Shown: piece after piece, positions 10,070 through 44,622 of the stretch
How positions within the stretch are numbered: the stretch's first letter is position 1
How the letters are laid out: each line of letters starts with the position of its first letter
Notes under the pieces: model-generated
Databases searched by the model: none
What the model saw: only the letters and a program-made list of their open reading frames with translations
What the model was told of the DNA's origin: nothing
Translations under genes and position numbers: made by a program
From: a bacterium
GTDB taxonomy: Bacteria > Eisenbacteria > RBG-16-71-46 > CAIMUX01
DNA length: 64,000 bases
NCBI GenBank assembly: GCA_030431975.1
Contig: JAUIHP010000021.1
Span: forward strand, 1-64,000
Reading direction: 5' to 3'

Positions 10070-10082
10070 GAGTCCATGATCG

Positions 10083-10104
10083 GACTTAAAGTTCACTTTA
10101 ACTC
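10083..10104. promoter_or_regulatory. MerR/SoxR-type operator dyad between soxR and the transketolase pair
   Basis: A 10-bp inverted repeat (gacttaaagt / actttaactc, 9 of 10 complementary, 2-bp centre) lies between the divergent genes. On the minus strand a TTGAGT box (10106-10101) and a weak GATCAT box (10081-10076) are separated by 19 bp, the long spacer that MerR-family activators such as SoxR correct by bending the DNA. The dyad sits inside that spacer. The half-site differs from the enterobacterial CTCAAG core, so the site is assigned by position and symmetry. Confidence 0.6.
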
Positions 10105-10136
10105 AAGGACTTTGACGACTTTTTCGTGGGATCGCA

Positions 10137-10592: not shown

Positions 10593-11091
10593 CACCCGGC
10601 CTTGCTGCGCTGGCCGTCCGATCGCCGATGCAAAAGCGGAACCAGGCCGCCGGCACGTGCAGCTCAACAAGAATTGACAAGACGTCCCCCATCCCGCACT
10701 TCGTTTGACTTGACAGAGACCCGTAACCCTTTACGCACCAGACGGATAGTAACTATCTGGTTGAAATTTTGGCATACTGAGACATAAGATATACGGGCCG
10801 TTGCTGGAGGCTTACGTGCGGGGTACGGAAGTATTGGGAGTTCTGGCGGTCCGCGCCGGTTGGGGTACGTGAGTCGTACGAGCCGCCGGCCCAAGCCCAC
10901 TCTTCTTTGGATTCCAATCCACCTCACTCTCTTCGAGCGCTGCAACTGTCGGGACTCGTGACCCATCGATGCGGCTTGGGGATGCTGCAGGTCGACGAGC
11001 TTCGTTCGGGGATTCCTTCCCGAACTTGCCGCCCATGGTTTCGGGTTCCCGTTTAGGTCGGTCAATCAAAAGCCATCGGAGATCACACGAC
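10593..11091. other. Intergenic region and long leader of the 1011-residue surface protein
   Basis: No gene is visible in these ~500 bases. They contain an imperfect palindrome (gatagt-a-actatc, about 10744-10756) just before a good promoter. If that promoter is used, the mRNA leader of the next gene is ~300 nt, with a GGCGG/CCGCC-bounded segment near 10845-10890 that could fold. I recognise no known riboswitch. Confidence 0.4.
10761..10790 (+). promoter_or_regulatory. Sigma-70-type promoter candidate
   Basis: TTGAAA at 10761-10766 and TAAGAT at 10785-10790 are separated by 18 bp in a locally AT-rich patch, which stands out in this GC-rich DNA. It points toward the large surface-protein gene starting at 11092. 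A small palindrome at about 10744-10756 lies immediately upstream and could be an operator. Confidence 0.5.
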
Positions 11092-14000: not shown

Positions 14001-14127
14001 GGGCGAGCATCGGATGAACTGGGACGGAAAGAACGACCTTGGTCGGGAGATGCCGGCCGGCGTCTACGTCATGTCGTTCCAGGCGCCGGGACTCAAGGAG
14101 ACGAGTAAGATCCAGATCGCGCGCTGA
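11092..14127 (+). CDS. Large secreted beta-helix/cohesin-like protein with FlgD-like C-terminus
   Basis: The protein has 1011 residues. I start at ATG 11092, after ggag and before a signal peptide ending SSEAA. Residues ~25-430 begin with the GVWSNPANWSPAQVPGPGDTA motif seen in autotransporter-like strand repeats and continue as Asn/Gly/Thr-rich beta-helix sequence. Around residues 450-600 there is a Cys-containing beta domain of cohesin style (VRGYSVTFEVTGGLEL). Residues ~770-890 form a second cohesin-like sandwich (KSVKGVHSLIEYDRSQLEL). The end is a FlgD-like module (ARPNPFAAHTDIAFRL, then DISGRLVRSLVNG and WDGKNDLGREMPAGVY). It is probably a surface adhesin or scaffold; no partner dockerin was recognised. 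Confidence 0.72.
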   Translation: MLKRTSGRIALALGAIVMLAPSSEAANISWAAAASGVWSNPANWSPAQVPGPGDTAFINVTGTYTVSLDGPVTVDAVNVGTLTGSQTLRTINHSLTITTGNSTVSNEGTLDIQNATVDGGGTILNTTGAVELTDATIDCNLTNAGLLDTDGATAINGTFTTTGSAISRVNSGTLTVANSFSNQNQFQMLTGGTGLTVTSGSFTNNGILLCSGPAPARALDVNLVNNGTMTVAAGVELTRADAAHVNNGTINCFVGDFNVNQSGATPSFANDGILFVSSGRIFSCDAGTFTNGSAGAVRGEGLFDFTGCTHLSSGETAPGSGTALMTHAGDFTQDGSGSLVIEIGGLGAGSDYDQLAIVGDATFDGTLDVSLVGGFIPTAGQTFDIATFASLTGDFSDLSSLDVGGGIFFTPQISGSTYTLLAEQDPDNVSPVDPGVCITPASPTLTIDMDFTRLDVSQVRGYSVTFEVTGGLELVDGLNSIVEGAFLSGFCGGGCTAVQKIDNGGGSYTFDATILGANCGPDTGGTLFTVEVTDAAGDGTGDINVTAVDVRDCNNQPVPGEPGAGITIDIDLTAPTQLALAAAQVKTGNDTSGTTGIQVDLTGIEALHTVEVFRKGFGDYPTYAAGSVPTAPASPADAITEGWTLTSLTTASGVDEPATRDFYYYVGFQTSACGVVTPVSNVTDGALNYHLGDTSDGITQGQGDNAVGTVDLSLLGGNYLSGNVPAVAYLDFGPTEDFTPDSRPTPDGVIGFEELILTGINFNQVSLNEPLDPVAGNLTNEAPKLRMYTAEGLSKITARVVLEGNKKSVKGVHSLIEYDRSQLELIDVTYGRLLDQTFTKHVDVAEGLVLDAVVMGRNQTLKGSGDLAVLEFRVLEMGARPELAEADLRDNANRRLLDKKTTPIRNETTPDADRTTEIPSVTQFLGARPNPFAAHTDIAFRLAQPGEVRVAVHDISGRLVRSLVNGSLAAGEHRMNWDGKNDLGREMPAGVYVMSFQAPGLKETSKIQIAR

Positions 14128-14167
14128 TGACACCACGGTCCTTTTCGCGCGGACCGAACACGTGAGA

Positions 14168-14203
14168 GAACACCGGGATTCAAACGAGTGAGTCCCGGTG
14201 TTC
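14168..14203 (+). terminator. Strong intercistronic hairpin
   Basis: A perfect 11-bp inverted repeat (gaacaccggga / tcccggtgttc) with a 14-nt loop lies between two surface-protein genes and ends 10 bases before the ribosome site of the next one. A smaller hairpin (cggtcc/ggaccg) lies just upstream. There is no T-run, so attenuation or mRNA stabilisation is as likely as termination. Confidence 0.6.
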
Positions 14204-14221
14204 CAACACAAGGAGGTACGA

Positions 14222-15061
14222 GTGTTCCAGCGAGCTTTGATCGTCACCCTCGTGGCCGGACTCCTTTCAGTAGCGGCATCTGTGTCGCAGGCCGGTGGAG
14301 TCGACGAGTTCAACGCCTTCCTGCTCCCGGAACTGAGTGCGGTCGAGATCGGAGACACCGTCATGGTGACCTTCGAAGTCGACGAGACCGCCCAGCAGTT
14401 CAACGCTTACGAGGTCACCCTCCAATGGGATCCGGCCGTCGTCGAGTTGCTTTCCGTTTCGGAGGGCAGCCTCTTCACGAGTAACTGCGGCAACCGTTTC
14501 TTCCAACAGGTCGGGGCTGCAACCGACTCGACGATCACCTACTCCCACGTCCTGCTTTGCAACGGAGTCTCAGTGGACGGCCCCGGGGTTCTCAGCACCT
14601 GGGAGTTCCGCGCCGTGGCCGACGGCTCTTCTGACGTCCTCCTGGCATCCGACCCGGATCGCACCTTCTTCGACGCAGGGCTGTTTGTCTGGCCAAGCCA
14701 TCCGACCTACCCTCGGCAGGTCATCTTTCACAACGCCGTTATCGAAGTCGGTGACGTGACGAATGTCGAGCAGATCCCGCCGGCGCTTTCCCAGGAACTG
14801 GGCCTTCGCCTGGTCCCCAATCCAGTGACCGCGGACTCGCAGATATGGTTCCGCCTTGGATCCGTCGGTTCCTCCGAGATTCGTTTCGAGATCATCGACC
14901 CGGCCGGTCGAAGAGTCAGAGAGTGGAGCCAATCGGCTCGATCCGTAGACGGCTGGCAGCAGGCAGACAATGTTCGTAAGGAACTTCCCCGAGGAACGTA
15001 CATCCTACGGGGTCGGTCTGCGGACGAGGTCTCGAGTCTGAAGTTCCAAGTCGTCCGGTAG
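14222..15061 (+). CDS. Secreted cohesin-like domain protein with degenerate FlgD-like C-terminus
   Basis: The protein has 279 residues. The GTG start at 14222 follows a near-perfect aaggaggt at 5 bases; the leader ends SVSQA. Residues ~25-185 form a cohesin-like beta sandwich (VGDTVMVTFEVDETAQQFNAYEV, ALQWDPAVVELLSV style strands, two Cys pairs). The C-terminal ~85 residues (LRLVPNPVTADSQIWFRL, IIDPAGRRVREW, ELPRGTYIL) are a diverged FlgD/T9SS-type tail lacking the WDG core. It follows the larger cohesin-like gene across a strong hairpin and may be its partner on the surface. Confidence 0.7.
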   Translation: MFQRALIVTLVAGLLSVAASVSQAGGVDEFNAFLLPELSAVEIGDTVMVTFEVDETAQQFNAYEVTLQWDPAVVELLSVSEGSLFTSNCGNRFFQQVGAATDSTITYSHVLLCNGVSVDGPGVLSTWEFRAVADGSSDVLLASDPDRTFFDAGLFVWPSHPTYPRQVIFHNAVIEVGDVTNVEQIPPALSQELGLRLVPNPVTADSQIWFRLGSVGSSEIRFEIIDPAGRRVREWSQSARSVDGWQQADNVRKELPRGTYILRGRSADEVSSLKFQVVR

Positions 15062-15063
15062 TT

Positions 15064-15143
15064 TCCACAGGACCGTCAAGACGGATGCCCGGGACGTGCC
15101 GGCTCCGTCGAGACGGCTATCCGGAAAGTACCGGTCCTGTGGA
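15064..15143 (+). promoter_or_regulatory. Structured leader upstream of the pentapeptide-repeat gene
   Basis: A perfect 12-bp inverted repeat (tccacaggaccg / cggtcctgtgga) encloses 56 nt that contain further complementary segments (gacgga/tccgtc). This predicts a long closing stem with internal branches. It lies 3 bases after one stop and ~75 bases before the next start. No known riboswitch class was recognised. Confidence 0.5.
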
Positions 15144-15217
15144 GACGGCCTTCCCTCATCGGAACTCAAGAAACGGCCGGAACTGGCCGATCGAGTCGCT
15201 GAAGGGAGGAGTTTCTT

Positions 15218-15580
15218 ATGGGAGTTCCCCAGATCAAGTCCGAGGATGACCTGTATGCCGCTCTGCGGGACGGTCATCGCATTCAAGAGTTCAATCAGCG
15301 TGTGGCCAAGGGCGAGGAAACCGACCTGACCGATTGTGACCTTCGCGGCTGCGATCTTCGTGGCTGGGTCCCAGGTTCCCTCGACCTGAGAGGATGCTAC
15401 TTCCGTAACGCCGACCTGCGAGGCGTCGATCTCAGCCAGTGCAACCTCGATGGTGCAAGCTTTCACGAGGCGCGTATCAGCGGGGTCTTCTTCCCGGCGA
15501 GTATCTTCGCCGCCGAGATCGAGATGTCGGTCAGTCGGGGTACACGCGTTCGTCACCAGGCGGTAGACAAAGCAGCCTAG
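15218..15580 (+). CDS. Pentapeptide-repeat protein
   Basis: The protein has 120 residues, with a strong ribosome site (aagggaggag) 6 bases before ATG 15218 and no signal peptide, so it is cytoplasmic. Residues ~45-95 contain about eight A/C-D/N-L-x-G pentapeptides (TDCDLRGCDLRG, LDLRGCYFRNADLRGVDLSQ, CNLDGASF), enough for two coils of a quadrilateral beta helix. The N-terminal ~35 residues are helical. Known members include DNA-gyrase-protecting mimics, but this one is too short to place. It stands between surface-protein genes and ends at a two-hairpin terminator. Confidence 0.85.
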   Translation: MGVPQIKSEDDLYAALRDGHRIQEFNQRVAKGEETDLTDCDLRGCDLRGWVPGSLDLRGCYFRNADLRGVDLSQCNLDGASFHEARISGVFFPASIFAAEIEMSVSRGTRVRHQAVDKAA

Positions 15581-15603
15581 TAGGCCTGGACCGATCTCCC
15601 CAT

Positions 15604-15674
15604 CGAAGCCCGGTTCCCGTGGGCTTCGAGATCCGCACCCATGGACGGCGGCCCCTGTCGCCGTCCTTGTTTGT
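15604..15674 (+). terminator. Tandem hairpin transcription terminator
   Basis: There are two hairpins in a row. The first is cgaagccc/gggcttcg (15604-15611 with 15621-15628). The second is ggacggcg/cgccgtcc (15643-15650 with 15659-15666), followed by ttgtttgt. The second has the form of a rho-independent terminator for the pentapeptide-repeat gene. Confidence 0.8.
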
Positions 15675-15792
15675 CCAATCTCCAATCCATTAGACTCTGA
15701 ACATCGCTTGTTTCAGTGACCTGGAAGCCTAGTCCTCCCTTCGAGGCCTCGCCCAGCTCACGTCGGCCCACGCACTCGAAGAGCAGCACCCT

Positions 15793-17865
15793 ATGAAGCC
15801 GTTTCGTTCGTTCCGTCCAGTGTGCGCGATCATCCTCTCCGCCGGTGCCTTTTCGCAGGTCGCCCCGTCCCCTGCCGCAGCCGCCGCCGCGGAGATCTGG
15901 ACGGCCTCGTCGGGCTTGACGACGATCCACTTCAACACCGACATCATGAGCAGTATGGGACTGAGTCTGGCCGAGGTTGTGGAATCGAGAGGAATCGAGT
16001 CGGCTCCACAAGCACAACTTCCGGCCATGGAGGGACCCGGCTGGCAGTTCCGATTCGAGGGTAGCGACCTCCGCTTCCCGGTCGACCGTGGAAGGGTCCG
16101 GTGGAGCGAGGACTGGACCGGGTCGTTGAACCACGTTGGACAGTTCGCGTTTCGAACGGTCGACGATGGACAACTGTTCTACGTGGAAGACTTCATCGTA
16201 CAACCGGCCGACCATGCGTCCATCGGACCCCGCTTCGAGGTCACCGACAGCTATGGCCTTCCGGTCTTCGAGATGGTTGACGGATACCTCGGCTTCTATT
16301 CCGAAGACTCCAGCCTTCAGGGTGTCACCTTCGACCTCACCCTCAGTTCCGAGTTCGCACAACGGATGGGAAGCACCCGTCTGGCCGGACGTACCGTCGG
16401 AACGGTCGCCCTTCGCGCGCATGCACAATGGCTGCACGGTGACTCACCGGAACTCTTGACCCGTCCAGCCGTCGGAGACACCTGCCTGAACCGGGACATC
16501 GCACTCGGCGCACTCAATCGCATCGAGTACTGGAATCGTTCGGGCAGCTATCCCAACGGAGTCCTCGCGCTATCCATGGCCACGACTTCCTGCAACCTCG
16601 GCGAGTGCGATGTCGAGTGGGAAGCGCCGATGGCCGTCGACCATCCCGGAATTCTCATGTCCCTTTACCGGATCGATACGGCCGGAGTGCTCGAACAAAT
16701 CGGGATCAGTGAAACCAAGCACGCCTTCTTCGCCCTTTCCGGCAACCAGTGCGGCGACTGCCCGGAACCCAGCGACGGCACGTACCTGGCTGTCGGCTGT
16801 TCGGACACCTACAGCGTGAGCGCCAACGCGGATCGCAACTACCTCGCTCCCCGCGATGAATGGCTGGCCTACACTGCGTCGTGGGACTGCTTCGCCTCTC
16901 ACTTCACGAACGGCAACCCTGACTGCGAGCGCGTTCACGGCGGCAGCGGACATGGTCCGATCGACCATCGACTGCAAGTGTCCGAGGCCGAGCTGGCCGA
17001 CACTTCCGCTGCATATTTCTACGAGGCGAGCTACCTCGTGCGGGGCGACATCGACAAGTCCAACAACATCGGATGGCAGCCGACCTCGTTCGAACGGGAC
17101 GGCAACGACTATCTCTTCGACGGCGAAACGACGGTCGACGTCAACATCGGTCCGCTCCTCGAGACCTGGGGCGACGTGCATGAGTGGGTCAGTTTCGAAG
17201 ACGACGGATCCGTCCTGGTCGCAACGAAAGTGATCGAACCTGCGGTTGGACAGGTGCGGCTCGAATACGCCATCCTCAACTTCGATGCTGACCGCCAGAT
17301 CTTCAAGGTCAGCATTCCCGTCGGCTCCGCAAATCTTTCCAGCATCGGCTTCAACGATCCGAACCTCAACGTCCTCGACGACTGGAGCGCCGTTGTCAAC
17401 GAAGGAAAGATCACCTGGACGACGACGAACAACCCGCTCTCGTTCGGTCAAATGTTCAACTTCCGCTACTCCTTCCCGGGAGAGGCCGAGGATGGGCAGA
17501 TCGAGGTCAGCACCGTCATGGGGGGTGCGGAGACGAAGCTGGTCAACTCCAAGGTCCCGTCCACTGCCTCGAGCGCTCCAGGTACGCCGCTCTCACTACA
17601 ATTGGGACACACACCGAATCCGCTCAGCAACATCTCGACCATCCGGTTCGAGCTTCCGAACTCCACTCCCGCGAGCCTGCAGGTCTTCGACGTCAGCGGT
17701 CGGCGAGTCCGGTCCCTGATCGATGGCCTCTTGCCTTCTGGCCCCCAACGCGTCGAGTGGGACGGCCTCGACGACGGCGGACTACGGGTCCGGTCCGGGG
17801 TCTACTACTACCGACTGCAGGCGGGCCCCCAGACCGAGGCCAACTCGATCACCGTCATCGACTAG
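15793..17865 (+). CDS. Secreted protein of unknown function with FlgD-like C-terminus
   Basis: The protein has 690 residues with a signal peptide ending AAAAAAE. I do not recognise the main body (residues ~30-600). It is rich in Trp, Asp and paired cysteines (CNLGECDVEW, CGDCPEP, CFASHF..CERVHGG), which suggests a disulphide-stabilised beta structure, possibly a carbohydrate- or cell-wall-binding exoprotein. The last ~85 residues are a clear FlgD-like module (TPNPLSNISTIRFEL, VFDVSGRRVRSL, VEWDGLDDGGLRVRSGVYYYRL). It is preceded by a terminator and stands as its own transcription unit. Confidence 0.65.
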   Translation: MKPFRSFRPVCAIILSAGAFSQVAPSPAAAAAAEIWTASSGLTTIHFNTDIMSSMGLSLAEVVESRGIESAPQAQLPAMEGPGWQFRFEGSDLRFPVDRGRVRWSEDWTGSLNHVGQFAFRTVDDGQLFYVEDFIVQPADHASIGPRFEVTDSYGLPVFEMVDGYLGFYSEDSSLQGVTFDLTLSSEFAQRMGSTRLAGRTVGTVALRAHAQWLHGDSPELLTRPAVGDTCLNRDIALGALNRIEYWNRSGSYPNGVLALSMATTSCNLGECDVEWEAPMAVDHPGILMSLYRIDTAGVLEQIGISETKHAFFALSGNQCGDCPEPSDGTYLAVGCSDTYSVSANADRNYLAPRDEWLAYTASWDCFASHFTNGNPDCERVHGGSGHGPIDHRLQVSEAELADTSAAYFYEASYLVRGDIDKSNNIGWQPTSFERDGNDYLFDGETTVDVNIGPLLETWGDVHEWVSFEDDGSVLVATKVIEPAVGQVRLEYAILNFDADRQIFKVSIPVGSANLSSIGFNDPNLNVLDDWSAVVNEGKITWTTTNNPLSFGQMFNFRYSFPGEAEDGQIEVSTVMGGAETKLVNSKVPSTASSAPGTPLSLQLGHTPNPLSNISTIRFELPNSTPASLQVFDVSGRRVRSLIDGLLPSGPQRVEWDGLDDGGLRVRSGVYYYRLQAGPQTEANSITVID

Positions 17866-33035: not shown

Positions 33036-34184
33036 CTAGCCGATTTCGTCGCCGAGGATGCGGCGAAGATGTTCCCATTGCTCCGAAGTCAGGATGCTCT
33101 CCAGAGCGGTGACATAGCGGTTCGTGATCTGCTGCATGCGAGCCCGAGCCTCCTCGCCGGTCATCTCTCCGGAGGCCAGGGCCACCCGAACTTCGCGAAT
33201 GGCCTGAAGCCGGAACCGCTCGATCTCGATGACGGCGTGAAACTGGTCCTCGGAAAGTCCCAGCGCCTGAGCAATGCGCTCCCAACGGCGAAGGTCGACA
33301 TCATGGTCGGGGTCGACGTCGTCGTCACCTCCATCATCGTTCCCGTCGTCGGGATCCGTCGGGTCGTCGTCCGTCGGATCACCGTTGTCATCCGGGTCAC
33401 GCGGATCGTCGCTACCGTTTCGGATATCGAGCAGACGCCGCCACTGTTCCGCCGTCAGAATTTCCTGAAGGCGCGACTCAAAGCGGGCGCGGAGGTCCCG
33501 AATCAGGCGTCGCGCCTCTTCTGCACCGAGTTCGCCGGTTTCGAGGCGGCGATGCACTTCGCGGACACGATCAGCGGTGGCGGTTTCGGCCGTCAGAATC
33601 GCATCGAGTTGCGCATCCGTGAGTCTTAGGACGCGAGCGAGGCGATCCCAATACGCTCTGCTGGGGTCGGTATCGCCGTCCGAGTCAGAATCGTCTCCGT
33701 GATCCCCGTCCGGTGAATCAGTGTGGCCGTTGCGAAGTTCCTGCAAAAGGCGGTACTGCTCCTCGGTCAGAATCTCCCGAAGCCGGGTCTCGAAGTTTTC
33801 GCGGAGGGATCGCGCCCGGATCGAAGCCTGTTCGCGGCTGATTTCGCCGGCTTCATAGGAGCTGCGGAGCGCCTTCATCGCCTCATCCAATTCCTGATGA
33901 GCGTCACGCAGCGCGACCAGTTGCCTTTCGGACAGGCCCAACGCCTCGACGAGGCGGGACCACCGGTCCCCGGTTCCTTCGCGATCGGTTGCTGCGTCTT
34001 CGAAGGTAATCTGGGACTCGGCGTCGAAGAGACTGGTCATCTCCTCTTCCGTCAGAGTGGAGGCGCCCCTCGGTTCCGTGGGTCCGTCATCGGAACATCC
34101 GACCGCACCGAACATCATCGTCGCCGCGAGGGCGGTCGTCGCCAGGCCGTTCAGGATCCAGCTTGTCTTCAGGGGACGCAGCAT
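33036..34184 (-). CDS. Lipoprotein with three LTxxQ (CpxP/Spy-like) repeats
   Basis: The protein has 382 residues. ggagg lies 8 bases before ATG 34184, and the leader ends in a lipobox (GAVGC-SDDG). There are three copies of an ~80-residue helical unit, each ending with an LTxEQ motif: ILTEEQYRLLQELRNG, ILTAEQWRRLLDIRNG, ILTSEQWEHLRRIL. They are joined by Asp/Gly-rich linkers that would bind cations. Periplasmic LTxxQ proteins (CpxP, Spy, CnrX-type) sense misfolded protein or metals and often control stress sigma or two-component systems. The gene lies immediately upstream of the ECF sigma gene on the same strand, so it may be the envelope sensor of that set. A three-fold repeat is unusual. 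Confidence 0.8.
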   Translation of the reverse strand: MLRPLKTSWILNGLATTALAATMMFGAVGCSDDGPTEPRGASTLTEEEMTSLFDAESQITFEDAATDREGTGDRWSRLVEALGLSERQLVALRDAHQELDEAMKALRSSYEAGEISREQASIRARSLRENFETRLREILTEEQYRLLQELRNGHTDSPDGDHGDDSDSDGDTDPSRAYWDRLARVLRLTDAQLDAILTAETATADRVREVHRRLETGELGAEEARRLIRDLRARFESRLQEILTAEQWRRLLDIRNGSDDPRDPDDNGDPTDDDPTDPDDGNDDGGDDDVDPDHDVDLRRWERIAQALGLSEDQFHAVIEIERFRLQAIREVRVALASGEMTGEEARARMQQITNRYVTALESILTSEQWEHLRRILGDEIG

Positions 34185-34516
34185 CTTCGTTTCCTCCGAC
34201 GAATCCGAGTGAGTTGAGCCTGCGAGCAGCCCGCGGGGCCCATCCAGGATCGAATGCCATTGGGCTCGACCTGGCCGTTTGGGAGACCACTCCCAGTATG
34301 TTATCGACCCGATCCCGTACGAGTCCATGCTCGAATGAGGCGGTTCCCGAGTCCCGCGCCTCGTGCGGGGAGCCTGGCGTGGCCGTAAGTTGCGCGGGCG
34401 CGGACAGTGGAGACCAGACCAACCGGAGTGATATCATCGAATGGCTGTGGGGTGGACGATCATCCTGCGGCCATCGCCGCTTCCCCTCGCTGCTTCTGCT
34501 CAAGGAGGTTCCCGGA
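34185..34516. other. Divergent promoter region
   Basis: These ~330 bases between the divergent lipoprotein and M28 peptidase genes contain no credible gene. Promoters for both directions should lie here, but I could not pick convincing boxes. Confidence 0.4.
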
Positions 34517-35929
34517 ATGAGCCCTGCTTCCGCTCTCCGACCCACGCTTGCCGTTGTCGCGTTCCTGGCCCTGGGATCCTCACTCGCCGCCCGGACTGCG
34601 GAGGCCCACGACCCGCATCCGCCACACTCGGACGACCCGAGATTCCAATGCCGGTTTCATGTCGAGATCCCCAACAACGCAGTCTTCGCCAATCCTCCGG
34701 CTTCACACCGGGCGACCGACTTTGCGCCCGAAGTCGACGACATCGTCTCGGGGCTCACACTCCAGACTTTTGACGCGTTTCTACGTGACTTGTCCGGCGA
34801 GACCACCGTCTCGGTCGATGGAAAAGCCGTCTCCTTCGAAACCCGCTACTCGCTGAACACGGAGGGACAGGCTTCGTGGATCTATGTCTACGAGACGCTC
34901 GAAGCCCTGGGCTACGACGTGCGGTATCAGGAGTACTCGCGAAGCGGTTTTGATCTCCGGAACATCGTTGCGCGCATTCCGGGACAGGAAACGCCGGAAG
35001 AGATCTACGTCCTCGGCGGACATCTCGATTCGATTTCCGAACAAGCCGGAACCTTGGCTCCCGGCGCCGAGGACAACGCATCGGGAAGCGCCGCCGTCCT
35101 CGCCGCAGCGGTTGCACTTCTGGGACAGCAGTTTTCGTCAACCATCGAACTCGTTCTCTTCACCGGCGAAGAGCAGGGACTTTGGGGCAGCCAGGCCTAC
35201 GTCGCCGAAGCGCAGTCCGAGGGCCGGGACGTTCGCTCGGCTGTGACCTGCGACATGATTTCCGCCTGGAACGACGACTACGGAGTCCTCATCGAAGGCG
35301 AGGAGGATTGGGAGTCCCTGATGTTCCTCGTCGGAGACGCCGTCGACGAGTACACGACGATCTCCAGACAGTTTTCCTATTTCTCTTTCGGCAGTGATCA
35401 CGTTCCGTTCCAGAACGCGGGAATCCCTGCCATTCTCGCCATCGACCTCGATTGGGGTTCGTACGCGCCGTACCACCGAAGCAACGACACCTATGACAAG
35501 ACCGATCCGACACTCGGTCACAAGATCTCCCAGGCCTGCCTCGCCGCGGTCGCACAGCAGGCCGGACCTCTGGGTTCCTCTGCGGACGCGCCGACGCCTC
35601 CGATGACCGTTTCGTTGCATGCGCAGCCCAACCCCGTGGCGGGTCCTTTCGGGTCGGTCACCGTTCGGTTCACTTCCTCCGCTCGAAAGGAGACCCCATC
35701 CGGCGCGGACTCCCAGTCACCTGGGTTCCAGGGGACTCCTCGCGGGCAAGTCTTCGATGTCACGGGCCGGGAGATTCGTACCCTACAGCCCGCTTCTGTG
35801 ACGAACGGCTCTGCGTCGGTTCACGAGGTGACTTGGGACTTGAGGAACGCGGACGGGTGGACGGTGCGCCCGGGGCTTTACTGGGTTCGGATGGGTTCCG
35901 AAGCGACCCAGGTCGTCGTGCTCCCGTAG
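34517..35929 (+). CDS. Secreted M28 zinc aminopeptidase with FlgD-like C-terminus
   Basis: The protein has 470 residues. A perfect aaggagg lies 8 bases before ATG 34517, and the signal peptide ends AEA. The M28 domain shows all metal ligands: YVLGGHLDS (His), GAEDNASGSAAVL (bridging Asp), FTGEEQGLWGS (catalytic Glu pair), TCDMIS (Asp), YHRSNDTYDK (His). This fits the Vibrio/Aeromonas leucyl aminopeptidase group, which trims N-termini of extracellular peptides. A FlgD-like tail follows (VFDVTGREIRTL, WDLRNADGWTVRPGLYWVRM) with an Asp replacing the usual Gly-rich core. It is divergent from the lipoprotein-sigma set. Confidence 0.92.
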   Translation: MSPASALRPTLAVVAFLALGSSLAARTAEAHDPHPPHSDDPRFQCRFHVEIPNNAVFANPPASHRATDFAPEVDDIVSGLTLQTFDAFLRDLSGETTVSVDGKAVSFETRYSLNTEGQASWIYVYETLEALGYDVRYQEYSRSGFDLRNIVARIPGQETPEEIYVLGGHLDSISEQAGTLAPGAEDNASGSAAVLAAAVALLGQQFSSTIELVLFTGEEQGLWGSQAYVAEAQSEGRDVRSAVTCDMISAWNDDYGVLIEGEEDWESLMFLVGDAVDEYTTISRQFSYFSFGSDHVPFQNAGIPAILAIDLDWGSYAPYHRSNDTYDKTDPTLGHKISQACLAAVAQQAGPLGSSADAPTPPMTVSLHAQPNPVAGPFGSVTVRFTSSARKETPSGADSQSPGFQGTPRGQVFDVTGREIRTLQPASVTNGSASVHEVTWDLRNADGWTVRPGLYWVRMGSEATQVVVLP

Positions 35930-36082: not shown

Positions 36083-36105
36083 GCGGGATCGATCGATGAT
36101 CCCGC
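36083..36105 (+). promoter_or_regulatory. Short hairpin just upstream of the 994-residue secreted protein
   Basis: gcgggatc/gatcccgc, an 8-bp stem with a 7-nt loop, ends 26 bases before the ATG. A weaker hairpin (cgaggt/acctcg) lies near 35995-36018. It is one of several hairpins placed shortly before secreted-protein genes in this window. Confidence 0.4.
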
Positions 36106-36131
36106 TTGTCCTCTCTTGGGGAGTCCACTTC

Positions 36132-39116
36132 ATGAGTTCCACGCGCGCTCGTTTTCGCACCGTTGTCTTTGTCACCGTTTCGTCCGCCGCCCTCGGCCTC
36201 CTTTGGATCAACCGGCACGATCCCGCCGACCGTTCGATCGCGTTCCAAATCGAGGACGTTCAGATCAACGAGTTCACAGCAAGCACGCAGAGCCGCGTCT
36301 CGCTGGATGTCGATCCCGAAGGCCGCGTGTTTGCAGCCTGGGACAGTCGTCGTCAGGAAGGCGGGACCTACGGAGTCCGCGGAAGGGTGCTGGACGGCTC
36401 CGGCGGATATCTTACCGCGGAGAGCCCGCTCAACACGACGACGGCTTCGATGCAGCAGGAACCCGCCGTCGTCTGGCTGGGCTCCGATCCCCTCGCGGCC
36501 TGGGTTTCTTTCGGACAGGACGGAGACGGTCGCTCCATTGTCGTCCGGGGCAGGTCCGGTGAGGAGTTCGTACTGAACGAAGAAACGGTCGGCGATCAAT
36601 CCGAGCTGTCACTCGCGAATCTAGGAGAAGAGACCGCAGTCGCCGTTTGGTCGAGCACGGACGGGCAGGGCCGCAGCATTCGCGGCCGCATGATCGATTC
36701 TTCGGGTCGCCCGATCGGTTCCGAATTCCCGATCAACGAAGACGTCACGTCTACGGTGAGTGCAGAGCGGACACAGCGTGCGGAATCGCAGTCGGTCATC
36801 CACCGCCTTCCCACGGTCGCAGCCTGCGCCGACCAATTCGTCGTGGCCTGGGACCGTTTCGACAACACCCTCGGCGATGCGGCGAAGTTCGAAGTTCGCG
36901 CCCGGGTCTTCGACCGCACCGGGCAGCCGCTCGGGAACGAGTTCGCGATCGGAGCCGGTGGCGTGGATGAAATCGAACCGTCCGCAGCCATGGACCCATC
37001 CGGAAACTTCGTCCTGGCCTGGATGCATCTGGACCCGGAAACCGAATACGACCCATACCACCAACGTTTCGACAAGAACGGCCGAGCACTTTCCGACCCG
37101 TCTCCCCTGGCTGAGAATGTCGCGGGGTGGCAGAGCGCGGTCTGCGTGGACCTGAACGACCGGGGAGAGTTCGTCGCGGCCTGGAACACCGTTGACGACA
37201 ACGGCGACTCGGACATCTGGGTACGCACCTTCGACGCGCATGCAGCTCCGCACGGAGCCGAACAAATCGCGACACAAACTCGGGATGGCCGTCAACTTCT
37301 GACCGGCCACCAGGGATCTCGCAGGATTGTCCTGGATGACAAAGGCAGAGTGACGCTGGGCTGGTCGGGCCAGGGACGCGGAGACGACGCGAGCGCGGCG
37401 CACGTTTCGATTCTCTCACCGGCGTCGCAGGACAGGTTCGAACCGCTGCAGAACTCCGGCGATTTCTCGAGCTGGATTACGACAGATCCTCCGGCCGGGG
37501 CGACGGACGAGCCCGTGGCGGCTCCGGTCTACGATCCGAGCACAACGGTCAACCTACCGCAGATCGTGGAGCACCGCGGCGGCGGTGACGTCGGCTTCAC
37601 CGGGATCACGGACACCGGATGGAATCCGCCCGACCCGCAGATCGCGGTCGGCAACAACCACCTGGTCTTGATGACGAACGGCGGGATCGCAGCGTACACG
37701 AAGGGTGGCTCTCTCCTCTGGTTTGACGGAATCGGGGGTGGAGGTGGATTCTGGGGCTCGGAAGGCGCGACCAGTTTCGTTTTCGATCCCGAAGTGCACT
37801 ACGACCCCTTTGAAGATCGATTCCTGGCCATGGCCAATGAGCGCTCCGGAGCGAGTTCGTTCTTTCTCCTTGGCATCTCGAGCACGGGAGATCCCACCGA
37901 TCCCTGGCACAAGTACCGTTTCAACGTCACCTCGATTGCAGATCGTGACATCGACTCTCCCAACATGTCGTTCGATGAGAACGGAATCTACCTTGGGGCC
38001 GACTTCTTCAGTCCGAATCGGTACCTCTTCTTCGGAATCGACAAAGCGTCCGTGCTGAACGGCGGCGCCCCCGTCACCGGTTCCTTCTTCCACAACGGTT
38101 CCCACTCTTTCGGCATGCCCGAACACCTGACGGATGAGGCGGACCGCGCCTACATGATCGAACACTTTGACGGGAACCAGTCGACGGTGCGGCTGTGGGC
38201 GATCGACGATCCGTCCGGGTCCCCGACCTCTCAGACCATCGACATCCCCGTCGACAACTATCTGGTCCCGGGTGTGGCCAAGTCTCGAGGCAGCTCGGTC
38301 AACATCATCCTCTTCGAGGCGCGGTTCTGGAGCGCAATGTACATCGACGGTTCGCTCTGGGCCTGCCACCACGTTCGTGTCCCGGGCGCCGTCACTCCAA
38401 AAGCCCGCTGGTACGAAATCGACATGAAGGGCTGGCCGACCTCCGGCATGACTCCTGCAGTCCGGCAGTCCGGCCAGATCGACGCCGGAGACGAGGTCTA
38501 CCTCACCTTCAACTCGATCGCAGGCGACGCGCAGGGCAACGCCTACATGGTCTTCGCCCGTTCCGGACTCGACGAGTTCTTCTCCATCGCCCGGACCTAC
38601 CGCTTGAGTTCGGATCCCTTGGGAACGATGCAGGGGCCGGACTTCATTCGCGAGAGCACCACCGCCTATCTCGGCGACCGTTGGGGAGACTACAGCGACG
38701 TTCAGGCGGATCCGGCCGAGCCCGGAAAGTTCTGGAGCTATCACGAGTGGGCAGTGAGCGCAGGCTCATGGTCGACTTGGGTCCAGTGTGAGACCCTGGC
38801 CAATCCGGCGAGCGTTCCAGGACTGGGTGACACAATCGCAGACGCACGCACGCTGCAGAGTGCACCGAATCCGTTCACGGACCGTACCGAGCTTCGTTTC
38901 CGTTCCGAGAGGGACGGGGACGTTCGCGCCCTCATCTTTGACGCCCGCGGCCGTCAGGTTCACGAACTTCAGCCGACGACAACGGATGGCTCGGGCTTCC
39001 TACGTTGGGACGGTCGCTTCGACGACGGGACGGCTGCGCCCGCAGGAATCTACTTCGCCCGCGTTCTCATCGACGGAACCGAAGTCGCCTCCGGGCGTCT
39101 CGTCAAAGTGGACTGA
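36132..39116 (+). CDS. Very large secreted protein of unknown function with FlgD-like C-terminus
   Basis: The protein has 994 residues. ggggag lies 8 bases before ATG 36132; a single N-terminal hydrophobic segment (TVVFVTVSSAALGLLW) acts as signal or anchor. Residues ~35-420 consist of repeating blade-like units with VAAWDSRR, AVVWLGSDPLAAWVS and FVVAWDRFDNTLGDA motifs, typical of beta propellers built from roughly 50-residue repeats. Residues ~430-890 form a second beta-rich domain (PQIAVGNNHLVLMTNGG, WGSEGATSFVFDPEVHYDPFEDRF, RWGDYSDVQADP), which resembles exported sialidase-like propellers. The end is FlgD-like (APNPFTDRTELRFR, IFDARGRQVHEL, RWDGRFDDGTAAPAGIYFARV). No catalytic function is assigned. 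Confidence 0.75.
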   Translation: MSSTRARFRTVVFVTVSSAALGLLWINRHDPADRSIAFQIEDVQINEFTASTQSRVSLDVDPEGRVFAAWDSRRQEGGTYGVRGRVLDGSGGYLTAESPLNTTTASMQQEPAVVWLGSDPLAAWVSFGQDGDGRSIVVRGRSGEEFVLNEETVGDQSELSLANLGEETAVAVWSSTDGQGRSIRGRMIDSSGRPIGSEFPINEDVTSTVSAERTQRAESQSVIHRLPTVAACADQFVVAWDRFDNTLGDAAKFEVRARVFDRTGQPLGNEFAIGAGGVDEIEPSAAMDPSGNFVLAWMHLDPETEYDPYHQRFDKNGRALSDPSPLAENVAGWQSAVCVDLNDRGEFVAAWNTVDDNGDSDIWVRTFDAHAAPHGAEQIATQTRDGRQLLTGHQGSRRIVLDDKGRVTLGWSGQGRGDDASAAHVSILSPASQDRFEPLQNSGDFSSWITTDPPAGATDEPVAAPVYDPSTTVNLPQIVEHRGGGDVGFTGITDTGWNPPDPQIAVGNNHLVLMTNGGIAAYTKGGSLLWFDGIGGGGGFWGSEGATSFVFDPEVHYDPFEDRFLAMANERSGASSFFLLGISSTGDPTDPWHKYRFNVTSIADRDIDSPNMSFDENGIYLGADFFSPNRYLFFGIDKASVLNGGAPVTGSFFHNGSHSFGMPEHLTDEADRAYMIEHFDGNQSTVRLWAIDDPSGSPTSQTIDIPVDNYLVPGVAKSRGSSVNIILFEARFWSAMYIDGSLWACHHVRVPGAVTPKARWYEIDMKGWPTSGMTPAVRQSGQIDAGDEVYLTFNSIAGDAQGNAYMVFARSGLDEFFSIARTYRLSSDPLGTMQGPDFIRESTTAYLGDRWGDYSDVQADPAEPGKFWSYHEWAVSAGSWSTWVQCETLANPASVPGLGDTIADARTLQSAPNPFTDRTELRFRSERDGDVRALIFDARGRQVHELQPTTTDGSGFLRWDGRFDDGTAAPAGIYFARVLIDGTEVASGRLVKVD

Positions 39117-39124
39117 CGCCGCCG

Positions 39125-39697
39125 GTGCACGGTGTAGGTGACGACGGCATCTCGACCCCGGACAACCGGGGTCGAGCCGACTTCCCCGCCGACTGGATCG
39201 AACCGATCTATGCCGATCTGCGACGTCTGGCCCAGCGGTACATGTCCAACGAACGCGGTGATCACACGCTTCAGGCCACGGCGCTCGTCCACGAGGCCTT
39301 TCTTCGGCTCTCCAACCTCTCGGTCGACGCGTCCGACCCCGCAGCCCTTCGCGGGTTGGCCGCCCGCACGATGAGGAATGTGCTCGTCGACCACGCGCGA
39401 CGCCGCGGCGCGGCCAAACGTCGCGGCGAAATCGAGACGAACGAGCTGGATGAAGAGCGAACCTCCGACCCGGTCGAAGACCCCGTCTGGGACGAGCTCA
39501 TCGCGCTGGATCAATCCCTGGAACGACTGGCGAAGTTGGATGAACGAAGGGCGCGCATCGTCGAGCTCCGATTCTTTGCCGGTTGGACAGTGAGCGAAGT
39601 CGCCGAACTGTTAGGCGTTTCTGTGCGCACGGTGAACTACGACTCCGCATCGGGATGCGAGTGGCTGCGGACGGATATGGGCCACGACGAAGCATGA
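39125..39697 (+). CDS. ECF sigma factor (Sigma70_ECF, kinase-linked type)
   Basis: The protein has about 190 residues. The only reasonable start in frame after the preceding stop is GTG 39125, though without a clear ribosome site. It has the ECF signature of the type paired with Ser/Thr kinases: YADLRRLAQRYMSNERGDHTLQATALVHEAFLRL, then LRGLAARTMRNVLVDHARRRGAAKRRG, and in region 4 LERLAKLDERRARIVELRFFAGWTVSEVAELLGVSVRTV. Its stop overlaps the kinase start (ATGA). In characterised neighbours the kinase phosphorylates and controls the sigma factor; the same is likely here. Confidence 0.9.
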   Translation: MHGVGDDGISTPDNRGRADFPADWIEPIYADLRRLAQRYMSNERGDHTLQATALVHEAFLRLSNLSVDASDPAALRGLAARTMRNVLVDHARRRGAAKRRGEIETNELDEERTSDPVEDPVWDELIALDQSLERLAKLDERRARIVELRFFAGWTVSEVAELLGVSVRTVNYDSASGCEWLRTDMGHDEA

Positions 39698-42303
39698 GCG
39701 TCGGCAAGGAGGAGAACCAAGTCCGCAGTACTTCCAGGCCCGAGTTTCAACCCACTGAGTCCGACTCGGAACGTTGGATCGCGCGAATCGTTGGAGCAGC
39801 CGCAACCCGGTACGTCGAGGACACCGACCCGGTCGTCGGTACAGACATCGGGCCATTCACGGTGCGGGAACGACTCGGCGAAGGCGGGATGTCGGTCGTC
39901 TATCTCGCGACGCAGAAGGACGACGTCTTCGATCGCCTCGTCTGCCTGAAGCTGATCAAACGGGGCATGGATACCGACGCGGTCCTGAGGCGATTCCAAC
40001 ACGAAAGGCGCATTCTTGCGGCCCTCGATCATCCGAACATCGCACGACTCTACGACGGAGGCACGACACCGGACGGCCGTCCCTACTTCGTCATGGAATA
40101 CGTCGACGGACAACACCTGCTCGGTTACTGCGACGCCCACGGTCTGTCCCTGAATCAACGCATCGATCTCTTCCGCGTCGTCTGCGATGCCGTTCAGTTC
40201 GCGCATCAGAACCTCGTCGTACACCGTGACCTGAAACCCGCCAACATCATTGTTACTTCGTCGGGCGTTCCGAAGCTTCTCGACTTCGGAATCGCGGCCG
40301 TCCTGCAGCCCGACTCCGGCACGACGTCCGAGACCACCGAGCCGCTCGGCTCCCGCGCGTTTCTGACTCCGGCCTACGCCAGCCCCGAGCAGGTACGCGG
40401 GCAACGTGTGACGACGGCCACCGACGTCTATTCGCTGTCCACCATCCTCTACCGGCTCCTTTCGGGAGCGCACCCGTTTCCGGCGGAATCCCGCGCCGAA
40501 CTGGAAGAAAAGATTCAGAAGGACTTGCCGGCTCCGCCAAGTCGGCATCGGGCGGCAACGGCGCCGCGACTACACGGAGACCTGGACCGCATCGTCCTGA
40601 AAGGGATGGCGAAAGATCCCGCCGAAAGATACGCCACTCCCCTGGAGCTTTCCGCGGATCTTGCGCGCTACCGACAGGGAATGCCGATCCAGGCGCGACC
40701 AAACTCCAGGACGGAGCGTTTCTTCAAACTGATCCGAAGAAACAAGCTCGCGACCGCAGCCGTTCTTCTACTGACGACCCTTGCGGTCTCGGCAACGGTT
40801 CAGTCCTTTCGGCTGGAGAGTGCGCGCCAATCGGCTCACACCGAACGCGACCGAGCACAGGAGACGGCAGCACTTCTCGCCGACGTTCTCGATGTGGCCG
40901 ACCCCAACGTCTCGTTTCGCGAGTCCCCACATTCCCCGCTCCTTGACTGGGGTGGGGGAAGCTTCACGCTCGAGGCTTGGATCCAGTGCTCGAGCGGCGG
41001 CCAAGGGTTGACCACGATTCTCGACAAGAGAGTTCCACCCTACCTCGCGTCCCGCGGCTTCTCCCTGTTCCTTTACGAAGGCCGTCTTGGGCTCCAGATT
41101 GCCGACGGCGAGAAGAAGTCATTGCCCGGCCAACAACAGGCGAGCACGAGCAACAACTACCTGGGAACGACGGATGTCTCGGACGGTCGGTGGCATCACG
41201 TGGTGGCCAGCGCCCGAAGAAACGAAGGCTCGGAGAAAGACGGCTGGATCGGACTCTTCGTCGACGGCCGACTCGATCGGGAGTTCGGCGGGGAGGTCGT
41301 CCGCTCCGGCTCGACCGACAATACAGCGCCGGTCCGGGTTGGACTGGAAAGTGACGGGTTCCACATTTCCAACCCGTTCCGAGGGGCGATTCGAGAGGTT
41401 GCCATCTATGATCAAGCCCTGACCCCTGCAGAGGTCGCGACTCGCCACCGCCTGGGACAGCGTGAACTCCACTCCCAGGGTGCGTACGTTTCCCCCGTTT
41501 CTGGATTGCCCGGCGAAACGATCCAAACGGCCCTGGTCGTCACCAATCCCGGCGGCGCCGAACGAACACTTCAGTGGACGGTCGCCGGACTCATCGGCCC
41601 CGGACAGAGCCGTCCGACCATCCCGACTCGTTTTTCTCCGGTCTCCGGAACACTGCACATCTTCCCGGGACAGAACGAGGGAGTTCAGGGTTTCGCCATC
41701 GAGCTTCCCGATGATCTCCCGGCTGGTCCGACACGGTTCGTCGTTTCGCTACAGGACGGCGCTTCCAGTGAACCGTGGCGCGTCTACGGAGTCGTCCACG
41801 TCCATGCCCGGGAGACCGATCGGGGTCAGGGTCAGAGTCAAACTCAGGATCCGACGAGCCCGAAGTCTTCGGACCGTCTCTCATTCCAAGGCGCATCGTC
41901 GAATCCATTGCGGGATTCCCCACCGAGCGGGCTTCGCGTTCCTGCCCCGCTCGATCTTTCCTTCGGGACCCGGCTGCGCACGAATGAGCGGTTCTCACGG
42001 GGCGCGATTCACTTCGGTGTTTCCAGCCGGCAGCCGATCGAGGTCGAGCTCGAGATCCGCGATATCTCGGGACAGGTCGTTCGCAACGTCCCGCTGGGCC
42101 CCTTGAGTGCCGGACAGCATTCGGTTCAGTGGGACGGAACCGGTCCGACCGGCGAGCGGCTCAAGAATGGGATCTACACGATTCGTATTCTGGGACGCGA
42201 CCACCTGGTGGCTCAGTGGGACGAAAGCGCCGGGGGCCTACGCCGGGCGCCCGCCGAACTGCTTCAGCAGAGAGTCGTCCACCTCCGTCATTCGGGCCCG
42301 TAG
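39694..42303 (+). CDS. Membrane Ser/Thr kinase with extracytoplasmic LamG and FlgD-like domains
   Basis: The protein has 869 residues. The start overlaps the sigma stop (ATGA). Residues ~50-330 form a complete Hanks kinase: GEGGMSVVYLA, LKLIKRG (catalytic Lys), VVHRDLKPANI, LLDFGIA, YASPEQV. One TM helix follows (~350-372, LATAAVLLLTTLAVSA). Up to ALLADVLDVADPN (~405) the sequence matches the usual TPR-bearing kinases of this class, but instead of TPRs it switches to a LamG lectin-like domain (GGGSFTLEAWIQC, GRWHHVVASARR, IREVAIYDQALTPAEV), then an Ig-like region and a FlgD-like end (EIRDISGQVVRNV, WDGTGPTGERLKNGIYTI). The extracytoplasmic half resembles the protein encoded just downstream. 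Confidence 0.9.
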   Translation: MSVGKEENQVRSTSRPEFQPTESDSERWIARIVGAAATRYVEDTDPVVGTDIGPFTVRERLGEGGMSVVYLATQKDDVFDRLVCLKLIKRGMDTDAVLRRFQHERRILAALDHPNIARLYDGGTTPDGRPYFVMEYVDGQHLLGYCDAHGLSLNQRIDLFRVVCDAVQFAHQNLVVHRDLKPANIIVTSSGVPKLLDFGIAAVLQPDSGTTSETTEPLGSRAFLTPAYASPEQVRGQRVTTATDVYSLSTILYRLLSGAHPFPAESRAELEEKIQKDLPAPPSRHRAATAPRLHGDLDRIVLKGMAKDPAERYATPLELSADLARYRQGMPIQARPNSRTERFFKLIRRNKLATAAVLLLTTLAVSATVQSFRLESARQSAHTERDRAQETAALLADVLDVADPNVSFRESPHSPLLDWGGGSFTLEAWIQCSSGGQGLTTILDKRVPPYLASRGFSLFLYEGRLGLQIADGEKKSLPGQQQASTSNNYLGTTDVSDGRWHHVVASARRNEGSEKDGWIGLFVDGRLDREFGGEVVRSGSTDNTAPVRVGLESDGFHISNPFRGAIREVAIYDQALTPAEVATRHRLGQRELHSQGAYVSPVSGLPGETIQTALVVTNPGGAERTLQWTVAGLIGPGQSRPTIPTRFSPVSGTLHIFPGQNEGVQGFAIELPDDLPAGPTRFVVSLQDGASSEPWRVYGVVHVHARETDRGQGQSQTQDPTSPKSSDRLSFQGASSNPLRDSPPSGLRVPAPLDLSFGTRLRTNERFSRGAIHFGVSSRQPIEVELEIRDISGQVVRNVPLGPLSAGQHSVQWDGTGPTGERLKNGIYTIRILGRDHLVAQWDESAGGLRRAPAELLQQRVVHLRHSGP

Positions 42304-42459: not shown

Positions 42460-44622
42460 ATGCGAAAGACTCTCAACGGCCGCGAGGCCGCTTCCACTTC
42501 CGAATTCGGCCGGCGTGGCCCCACACGGACGGCAATCTCGGGACGACCCCGCACGTACCGGTTCGTCGCCCTGATCGCCCTGTTTCTGTTGGTGGGACTC
42601 GATGCCCTTTCGATCTGCCAGGCACAAAGCGGAGAGATTCGCGGCCACGTCTTTCTGGACGGAAACTGCAACGGCGTCTTCGATTCCTGGGAAACCGGAC
42701 TCGCCGGATGGGACATCCGCCTTTCCGGAACTTCCAACGCGGTAGCCAACACCGACGCCACCGGTGCCTACTCCTTTGTCGGACTGGGTCCGGGGACATA
42801 TTCCGTGGCCGTCACCACGCAGCCCGGCTGGGTACTGACCGCTCCGGCCGGCGGATCCCACACCGTGAACCTGTCCGACGGAATCGCGGAAGACATCGAC
42901 TTTTTGAACTGCTCGTGTCCGATGGACGAACTACTTCCCCCACCTCCCTGCACGATTGCCTGGCTTCCCCTCGACGACGGAACCGGAGCCGTCGCGTCCG
43001 AAACGATCGGGGGTAACTTTGCCACTCTTCAGGGAGGGCCGAGTTGGGTGGCGGGAAGCGCCGCCGCCGCACTGCGATTCGCCTCAGGAGCCGACTTCGC
43101 GGAACTCGCATCGAGTCAGACCCCGTCTTTCGCATTCGGATCGTTCTCGATCTCTCTGTGGTTTCGATCCGACAACTCGGACGGACTCCGGCGCACCCTG
43201 ATCGACAAACGAAGTTCGACGGGAGGTCTCACCGGATTCCAGCTCTACATCGACAACAACCGGCTGGGTCTGCAATTGGCTTCCGCCGGCGCCTTCACCG
43301 ACTATGCGTCGTCCGGAACCGTGCTCACGGACGATGCGTGGCACCATCTTGTCGTCATCGTGTGTCGTGACCTGGATCCGGCCGGAGATGGAATCACCTT
43401 CTTCGTCGACGGAGCCCTCGATGCCCAGTGGTCGGCCACAGCCGTGTTGCAGGCCAACATCGACAACAACGTGCGACTCCGGCTCGGCCAGAACTCCGCC
43501 GGACTCCCGCCCGCCTTCGCACTGGATGCCACCCTCGACGAAGTTCTGCTCTACGACTGTTGCCTCTCGTTCTCGGAGGTCCTTCGAGTCATGGGAGGAA
43601 TCGCATCTGCGGACGCCCACCTTCCCTCGGCGGTCACGCCCTGCGGATCCACGGGCAAGATCCCTTTCCGCATCTGCAACTACTCCCCATTCTCGCGGAC
43701 GTTCACCTGGACCTTGGCCGGACGACCCGGCTGCGACGTGGCCGGACCAGAAGACTTCCAACCGTCTTCGGGAACGATCGTCCTTCCTCCGGGACCGGCC
43801 TGTCAGACCGTCCAATCCATCGTCCAGGTTCCGTCGTGGCTGACCGGAACCAACCTTTCGTGCTTTGAGTTGTCCGTTTTCGAACACGAGACCGCTCGGT
43901 GCTTCCGCGTTCCGACCGGAGTGCTTCGCGGTCCGGGATTTCTATGCCCCGACCCTGATCCTGCGATCTTCACACCCGTTCAACAGACGTTTCTCTTTTC
44001 CTTCGACATCGAGAACGGCACCCCCGACATGCTGACCGTCGAGTTGCAACTTTACCCGTGGTCATCCGAGAACGACGCCCCGAGCGGGTCTTTGGGGCTG
44101 GACGGTCTGCCTCCGGGAGAACCGATCGTCAGAACAGTCAAGATTCCACCGGAGGGAACCATTTCCGTCGGCGGTGAGGGGGAACTCGGCGACTTCGATC
44201 CGGCCGACGTCCAACAGATTCGACTCTTCGGAGACCTCTTCGGAGACGGAGTTCCCTTGTTGATGACGGACATTCCGGTCTACTCGGTCCTCGAGATCGA
44301 ACCGGCCGATGCGCCGGATCCTCCCAGTACCGTCCCGACGCCGTCGGTGGGCTGGAAGGCACTCCCCAATCCGTTTCGCGAGATGACCCGCGTTGAGATG
44401 GCGTCACCCGACTCCGATGTCGGATCCATCCGAATCGTCGATGCGTCCGGTCGCAACGTGCGCAGCCTGGACACGATGCGGACAACGGCCGAAGGCTCCG
44501 TCATCGAGTGGGACGGCCGTGATGATGCCGGAAGGGCAGTCGCAAACGGCGTCTACTGGATCCTTCCGACGTCCCCCTCGGAAAGTTCCCGGCCGGCGTT
44601 ACGTGTGATTCGCGTTCGCTGA
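42460..44622 (+). CDS. Secreted SdrD-B / LamG / FlgD-like protein
   Basis: The protein has 720 residues. gaggag lies 7 bases before ATG 42460, and a long N-region leads to a hydrophobic helix (VALIALFLLVGLDALSICQA). Residues ~57-150 match the SdrD B/CNA-B-like fold (GEIRGHVFLDGNCNGVFDSWE, TGAYSFVGLGPGTYSV). Residues ~165-375 are a LamG domain (FGSFSISLWFRSDNSDG, DDAWHHLVVIVCRD, LDEVLLYDCCLSFSEV). Residues ~395-620 are Ig-like, with paired cysteines. The end is FlgD-like (LPNPFREMTRVEM, IVDASGRNVRSL, WDGRDDAGRAVANGVYWI). It shares domain order with the extracytoplasmic half of the adjacent kinase and may be its ligand or its regulated product. Confidence 0.82.
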   Translation: MRKTLNGREAASTSEFGRRGPTRTAISGRPRTYRFVALIALFLLVGLDALSICQAQSGEIRGHVFLDGNCNGVFDSWETGLAGWDIRLSGTSNAVANTDATGAYSFVGLGPGTYSVAVTTQPGWVLTAPAGGSHTVNLSDGIAEDIDFLNCSCPMDELLPPPPCTIAWLPLDDGTGAVASETIGGNFATLQGGPSWVAGSAAAALRFASGADFAELASSQTPSFAFGSFSISLWFRSDNSDGLRRTLIDKRSSTGGLTGFQLYIDNNRLGLQLASAGAFTDYASSGTVLTDDAWHHLVVIVCRDLDPAGDGITFFVDGALDAQWSATAVLQANIDNNVRLRLGQNSAGLPPAFALDATLDEVLLYDCCLSFSEVLRVMGGIASADAHLPSAVTPCGSTGKIPFRICNYSPFSRTFTWTLAGRPGCDVAGPEDFQPSSGTIVLPPGPACQTVQSIVQVPSWLTGTNLSCFELSVFEHETARCFRVPTGVLRGPGFLCPDPDPAIFTPVQQTFLFSFDIENGTPDMLTVELQLYPWSSENDAPSGSLGLDGLPPGEPIVRTVKIPPEGTISVGGEGELGDFDPADVQQIRLFGDLFGDGVPLLMTDIPVYSVLEIEPADAPDPPSTVPTPSVGWKALPNPFREMTRVEMASPDSDVGSIRIVDASGRNVRSLDTMRTTAEGSVIEWDGRDDAGRAVANGVYWILPTSPSESSRPALRVIRVR

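Follow-up and report, generated by a model that had tools for sequence, protein, structure and literature searches.

How does a receptor kinase come to carry, in the place of its usual sensor, a half that resembles an exported protein? In the stretch of bacterial DNA analysed here (the window, 64,000 nucleotides), a single open frame (39694-42303, +) encodes an 869-residue receptor kinase fused to a LamG/Ig/FlgD module. The features of this gene and of the genes that adjoin it are as follows:

39005-39697, +: gene of an ECF-type sigma factor (longest frame, true start not fixed; PF07638, E 1.4e-40; TIGR02999)
39859-40635, +: protein kinase domain, residues 56-314 (Pkinase, E 4.7e-43, over the curated cut-off)
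40747-40803, +: the only membrane helix, at residues 352-370 (hydropathy peaks at 1.76 in a 19-residue window; positive residues lie towards the kinase)
40804-40908, +: kinase-family linker helix ending in ADPN (homology to TPR-type kinases up to residue 405)
40908-40909, +: fusion point, inside the LamG domain (alignments with a TPR kinase and with LamG relatives)
40909-41439, +: N-terminally truncated LamG domain (Laminin_G_3 match at residues 418-582, E 3e-16, 60.3 bits against a cut-off of 27.6; alignment with relatives)
41491-41898, +: Ig-like region with approximate limits, as found after LamG in secreted relatives (alignments)
42031-42189, +: FlgD_ig domain, residues 780-832 (E 2.1e-15, over the curated cut-off; FlgD chains in the PDB match at E 2.6e-7)
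42169-42300, +: displaced tail, which spans 44 residues between GxY and the stop (spacing count)
42460-44622, +: neighbouring secreted SdrD_B-LamG-Ig-FlgD protein, related to the module of the kinase (Pfam; 33% identity to kinase residues 407-672)

An earlier note on this DNA had proposed that the protein switches abruptly, after the ADPN motif that follows the membrane helix, from kinase to LamG/Ig/FlgD, that the same order occurs in the 42460 protein and that the module replaces a TPR sensor. All three proposals were borne out. The switch lies within one open frame and appears both in the Pfam matches and in the alignments with TPR-type kinases and with the 42460 protein. Kinase-family homology stops at residue 405 (base 40908), where in the BLAST alignment the TPR kinase continues with ADPARGPQVTARELLDQG and the 869-residue protein turns to VSFRESPHSPLLDWGGGSFTLEAW. 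From there, residues 407-672 align with the 42460 protein (E 2.9e-18), which itself matches SdrD_B, Laminin_G_3 and FlgD_ig; in the secreted relatives, the same Ig-like region stands between LamG and the FlgD_ig tail. The alternative that the downstream half is a divergent domain typical of kinases failed on this homology to secreted LamG/Ig/FlgD proteins, and a divergent TPR in the place of LamG was ruled out by the clear LamG match together with the absence of any TPR match at E 1. TPR_12 occurs in 104 of the 116 related kinase halves that were scanned with Pfam (loci L149, L090, L092, L103 and L110 were omitted for size or as a duplicate). TPRs are the rule in this kinase class, yet other sensor modules occur; the periplasmic TPRs that define a TPR receptor kinase after its membrane helix are absent from the 869-residue protein.

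The LamG domain of the kinase is incomplete. The Laminin_G_3 match begins at profile position 13, and the alignment with eight related LamG proteins shows that the first ~55 residues found in these relatives are missing, and with them the N-terminal strands of a complete LamG beta sandwich. The relatives have 54-60 residues before the VSFRES column, whereas the kinase has 16, which belong to its own linker. As the N-terminus of LamG is missing, the join must fall inside the domain. By eye, the stretch LDVADPNV of the kinase resembles FDGVDDNALV in the LamG of a secreted relative (L022), a likeness that may have aided the join.

A join inside a domain is also what would be expected if an assembler had blindly linked the kinase of one molecule to the secreted-protein gene of another, and the resulting domain order is unique in the sequences searched. 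However, the join is in frame, G+C is even across it, GC3 is 0.72 before and 0.70 after it, and the sister secreted gene lies directly downstream. Nor did the source genome yield a shared stretch of a length that could have misled an assembler: the 211 bases around the join have no second copy there, the best other match being 20 bases at 95% among short chance matches. This absence speaks against a repeat-driven misjoin within the source genome, although not against a misjoin with another species. An assembly error at the join is unlikely, and we give such a chimera very little weight.

To see how widespread the fusion is, we collected 128 related kinase frames from the source genome, a GTDB scan and the phylum. 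Of these, 121 extend at least 100 residues past the kinase region, giving 120 distinct C-terminal halves (L149 duplicates L003); 25 of the 121 are cut by a locus boundary and are only partly visible. LamG and FlgD profiles matched none of these halves. A search of 47 genomes of the phylum with the LamG-Ig segment returned 19 places, three of them in the source genome: the kinase, the 42460 protein and one gene on contig C1 that has no kinase in its frame. The other 16 lie in nine genomes and were fetched as 15 loci; the LamG frame was re-found in 14 of them (locus L254 gave no match), and none of these frames also encodes a kinase. Among the LamG genes recovered from the 46 other genomes of the phylum, none is joined to a kinase. 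The GTDB scan with the whole protein yielded 80 loci of 471 confirmed candidates, and the two that match past residue 430 are TPR kinases; an Acidobacteriota kinase that matches residues 21-513 (L046) and looked like a second kinase-LamG fusion was rejected as an ordinary TPR kinase. In four genomes of other groups, 38 LamG places and about 150 listed of 243 kinases, whose positions were compared by eye, shared no frame. A literature search for kinases with LamG gave nothing useful; such proteins may already be listed by Iyer et al., who surveyed the sensor domains of kinases. The further kinase-LamG-FlgD proteins that the earlier note had suggested searching for were thus not found, and the order is a singleton in the sequences searched, among which other phyla are covered little.

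Kinases do lie near two of the 16 LamG loci examined (L160 and L161), a proximity that may be due to chance, the genome being kinase-rich. On contig C1 of the source genome, L161 holds a sigma factor (QPTA motif) and kinase pair, the C-terminal sensor half of which appears propeller-like by eye. Divergent from this pair lies a second secreted LamG-FlgD gene, a frame of 1549 residues; the arrangement occupies 8908-13554 (-) and 13545-16928 (+) of L161. At the kinase locus itself, scans for promoters and terminators stayed at chance level, and no promoter-like site was found. The next gene is dihydropyrimidinase-like; around its counterpart in genome G001, no other neighbour is shared.

Next, we focused on the FlgD_ig tail, which the earlier note had described as one otherwise seen on exported proteins. 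The source genome encodes parts of a type IX secretion system, with PorU matches of 540 and 456 bits and a SprA match of 490 bits (all three over the cut-off) and 15 PorV-family matches, eight of which are over the cut-off. These eight PorV-family and two PorU matches are located on contigs C5, C8, C15, C22, C28, C35, C41 and C55. Matches of the kinase's tail led to 80 places in the source genome, a subset of its FlgD_ig tails, of which 77 are distinct; after one that we read as flagellar FlgD (L169) was set aside, 76 remained. All 76 end 21-27 residues after the GxY motif: by script, 74 end at 21-26 residues, 56 of them at exactly 22, while L217 and L236, which the script read wrongly or failed to pick up, end at 27 and 22 by eye. 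In the 42460 protein, a count by eye places the end of the tail 24 residues past GxY. This near-fixed spacing makes the FlgD_ig tails look like type IX C-terminal export signals in this lineage, by analogy with Porphyromonas gingivalis, where the export signal is reported to be the last 22 residues, comprising the last two strands (PMC4804311). No paper that connects FlgD and type IX secretion turned up in a literature search. The distance from the FlgD_ig tail motif to the C-terminus could offer an easy means of cataloguing proteins that the source genome probably exports. Two further frames upstream of the kinase, at window positions 34163-35929 and 36096-39116, have FlgD_ig-like tails, with matches that are both below the Pfam cut-off; one of them also has an M28 peptidase domain.

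The tail of the kinase departs from this pattern, with 44 residues after GxY. If an insert of 18 residues and the last four residues are taken away, exactly 22 remain (GIYTIRILGRDHLVA + QRVVHLR, by eye), and the ancestral tail of the module was therefore probably normal. At the insert lies an imperfect 20-nt direct repeat (42123-42142 and 42210-42229, 85% identical, 87 nt apart and in frame), which hints at a local duplication. The description of the tail in the earlier note thus stands for the domain, but the domain is altered precisely where the exported ones are near-invariant. Judged by spacing and not by export, the kinase lacks an export signal in its last ~22 residues. It also lacks a cleavable N-terminal signal peptide, as windows with hydropathy above 1.6 start only at residues 351 and 352, after the kinase domain. 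The tail probably no longer functions as an export tag, although it may still work, as the terminal strand QRVVHLR is present.

That retained strand, an FlgD_ig match over the cut-off and a secretion system in the same genome would all fit a tail that has kept its contact with the type IX machinery on the periplasmic side, with the kinase reporting secretion traffic or being clipped or pulled by the translocon. The P. gingivalis CTD protein PorA has been linked to PorXY-SigP signalling (PMC7712824). We nevertheless consider this improbable. The kinase breaks the spacing kept by all 76 non-flagellar tails in the sample, and a membrane-anchored protein could not simply be exported. At a threshold of E 0.01, moreover, the C-terminal part of the PorU profile picks up the tails of the 42460 and 36096 proteins and leaves that of the kinase unmatched. 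The PorU profile search scored 51 of 193 candidates, and the absence of the kinase tail from those results carries no meaning.

Because the only membrane helix has its positive residues on the kinase side, the kinase domain should be cytoplasmic and the remainder of the protein periplasmic. This bears on the proposal in the earlier note of an extracellular, lectin-like sensor. The homology to LamG holds, but the domain is truncated and the module is most likely periplasmic, as one helix anchors it and we see no route across the outer membrane. Taken literally, the proposal would make the protein a lectin-like receptor outside the cell whose surface tail still works, and it agrees with the LamG and FlgD_ig matches. 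It is at odds with the truncation of LamG, the displacement of the tail and the membrane anchor that separates kinase from module, and we regard it as extremely improbable.

Does the module still have a function? The fusion could be a recent deletion product in decay, in which the sensor was lost and the kinase is tied to a misfolded remnant on which no selected function rests. The missing LamG residues are consistent with this, as are the loss of the cysteines of the relatives (one in the module against 15 over the length of the 42460 protein), the disturbance of the tail next to an imperfect repeat and the lack of any relative with the same domain order. A LamG domain truncated in this way might not fold. 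Structure models decide nothing here, as the model of the module is weak (mean pLDDT 54.6) and the control model of a complete relative, the 42460 protein, is weaker still (40.7); a fold search returned generic beta-rich chains only, with low TM-scores. On the other hand, the frame stays open for 464 codons beyond the join, GC3 is equal on either side, LamG and FlgD_ig score well over their Pfam cut-offs and the kinase residues are intact. No orthologue of the kinase was found. Decay after fusion is a real rival to the reading we prefer, though we think it rather unlikely.

The intact half of the protein is accompanied by a probable target. The stop of the sigma factor gene overlaps the start of the kinase gene (ATGA, 39694-39697), and its sigma domain (~39194-39679) matches TIGR02999 (Sig-70_X6) at 148.8 bits against a cut-off of 126.15. 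Among 74 related kinase loci that extend 700 nt or more upstream, 35 have a sigma gene just before the kinase. Region 2.2 of the sigma factor contains a QATA motif (HTLQATALVHEA), in which the threonine of QxTA replaces the acidic DxxD; this reading comes from a comparison by eye with the consensus given in PMC13147305. In the kinase, K86, E104, D179, N184 and D197 are kept, at positions that are invariant or at least 90% conserved among relatives. These counts come from the kinase columns alone of an alignment in which the 42460 row is misaligned.

The reading we favour, with somewhat more confidence than doubt, is an inner-membrane receptor kinase with a periplasmic sensor that came from a secreted protein, lost or disabled its export tag and acts on the adjacent sigma factor. 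An in-frame fusion would have given the kinase its C-terminal half from a secreted LamG-Ig-FlgD protein like that encoded just downstream; lost in the process would have been the TPRs and, from the donor, the signal peptide and the initial LamG strands. The donor's FlgD_ig tail would have been a type IX secretion signal. Because the last strand pair of this tail has since been split by the insert and extended, the protein would now be retained in the periplasm. In sigma/kinase pairs that have been studied, the kinase phosphorylates its sigma factor and the phosphosite is a conserved threonine in the consensus QTTA; the kinase PknS is phosphorylated in cells when its periplasmic part is removed, but not at full length (PMC13147305). 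By analogy with PknS, the LamG/Ig/FlgD module may restrain the kinase, or activate it upon binding. The state of the kinase would be altered by a ligand or partner of the module, perhaps related surface proteins in transit to the outside, and the kinase would then phosphorylate the QATA threonine and render the sigma factor active. The secreted sister protein encoded at 42460 is a candidate partner by position only. A bolder version, which we hold only as a speculation and think improbable, is that the former type IX cargo serves as a sensor that reports, via the adjacent sigma factor, on the traffic or assembly of exported relatives such as the 42460 protein.

If confirmed, this arrangement would link sigma-factor phosphorylation to surface-protein modules. 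The locus offers a snapshot of a receptor gaining a new sensor, in which a single join within a domain would make exported cargo serve as the periplasmic half of a kinase, with an altered export tag. Although seen in one genome only, it may show how bacteria convert exported proteins into sensors.

With the ECF43 sigma/kinase pairs PknS-EcfK of Xanthomonas citri and PknT-EcfP of Vibrio parahaemolyticus, the locus shares an adjacent ECF sigma gene and a threonine in region 2.2 (PMC13147305, PMC8999054). As in an ECF43-type pair, the sigma gene is adjacent and the QxTA threonine is recognised by eye; the kinase, with its catalytic residues kept, may be active and phosphorylate the sigma factor. 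Like PknS, the protein is a membrane kinase with a C-terminal half that is periplasmic (PMC13147305, PMC8999054), a location that is predicted here. Unlike PknS, which has three periplasmic TPRs (PMC13147305), it would carry a module derived from a secreted protein. That module resembles the secreted SdrD_B/LamG/Ig/FlgD_ig proteins of the same phylum (the 42460 protein, L022, L023 and others) in its LamG domain, Ig-like region and FlgD_ig tail, whereas those proteins have a full LamG and no kinase in frame. Like type IX CTDs, the tail is an Ig-like domain at the C-terminus, and the genome that encodes it has PorU, PorV and SprA matches. In contrast to them, its terminal hairpin has an insert and an extension, and the protein has a membrane-helix anchor and no N-terminal hydrophobic stretch. 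A parallel for the variety of such sensors is offered by the kinases of Planctomycetota (PMC11032199). The words LamG, laminin and concanavalin are absent from the main text of that paper, but these kinases too have many accessory domain groups, with C-terminal WD40, TPR and rare accessory domains, and about half of the 105 groups are reported from a single protein of a single species.
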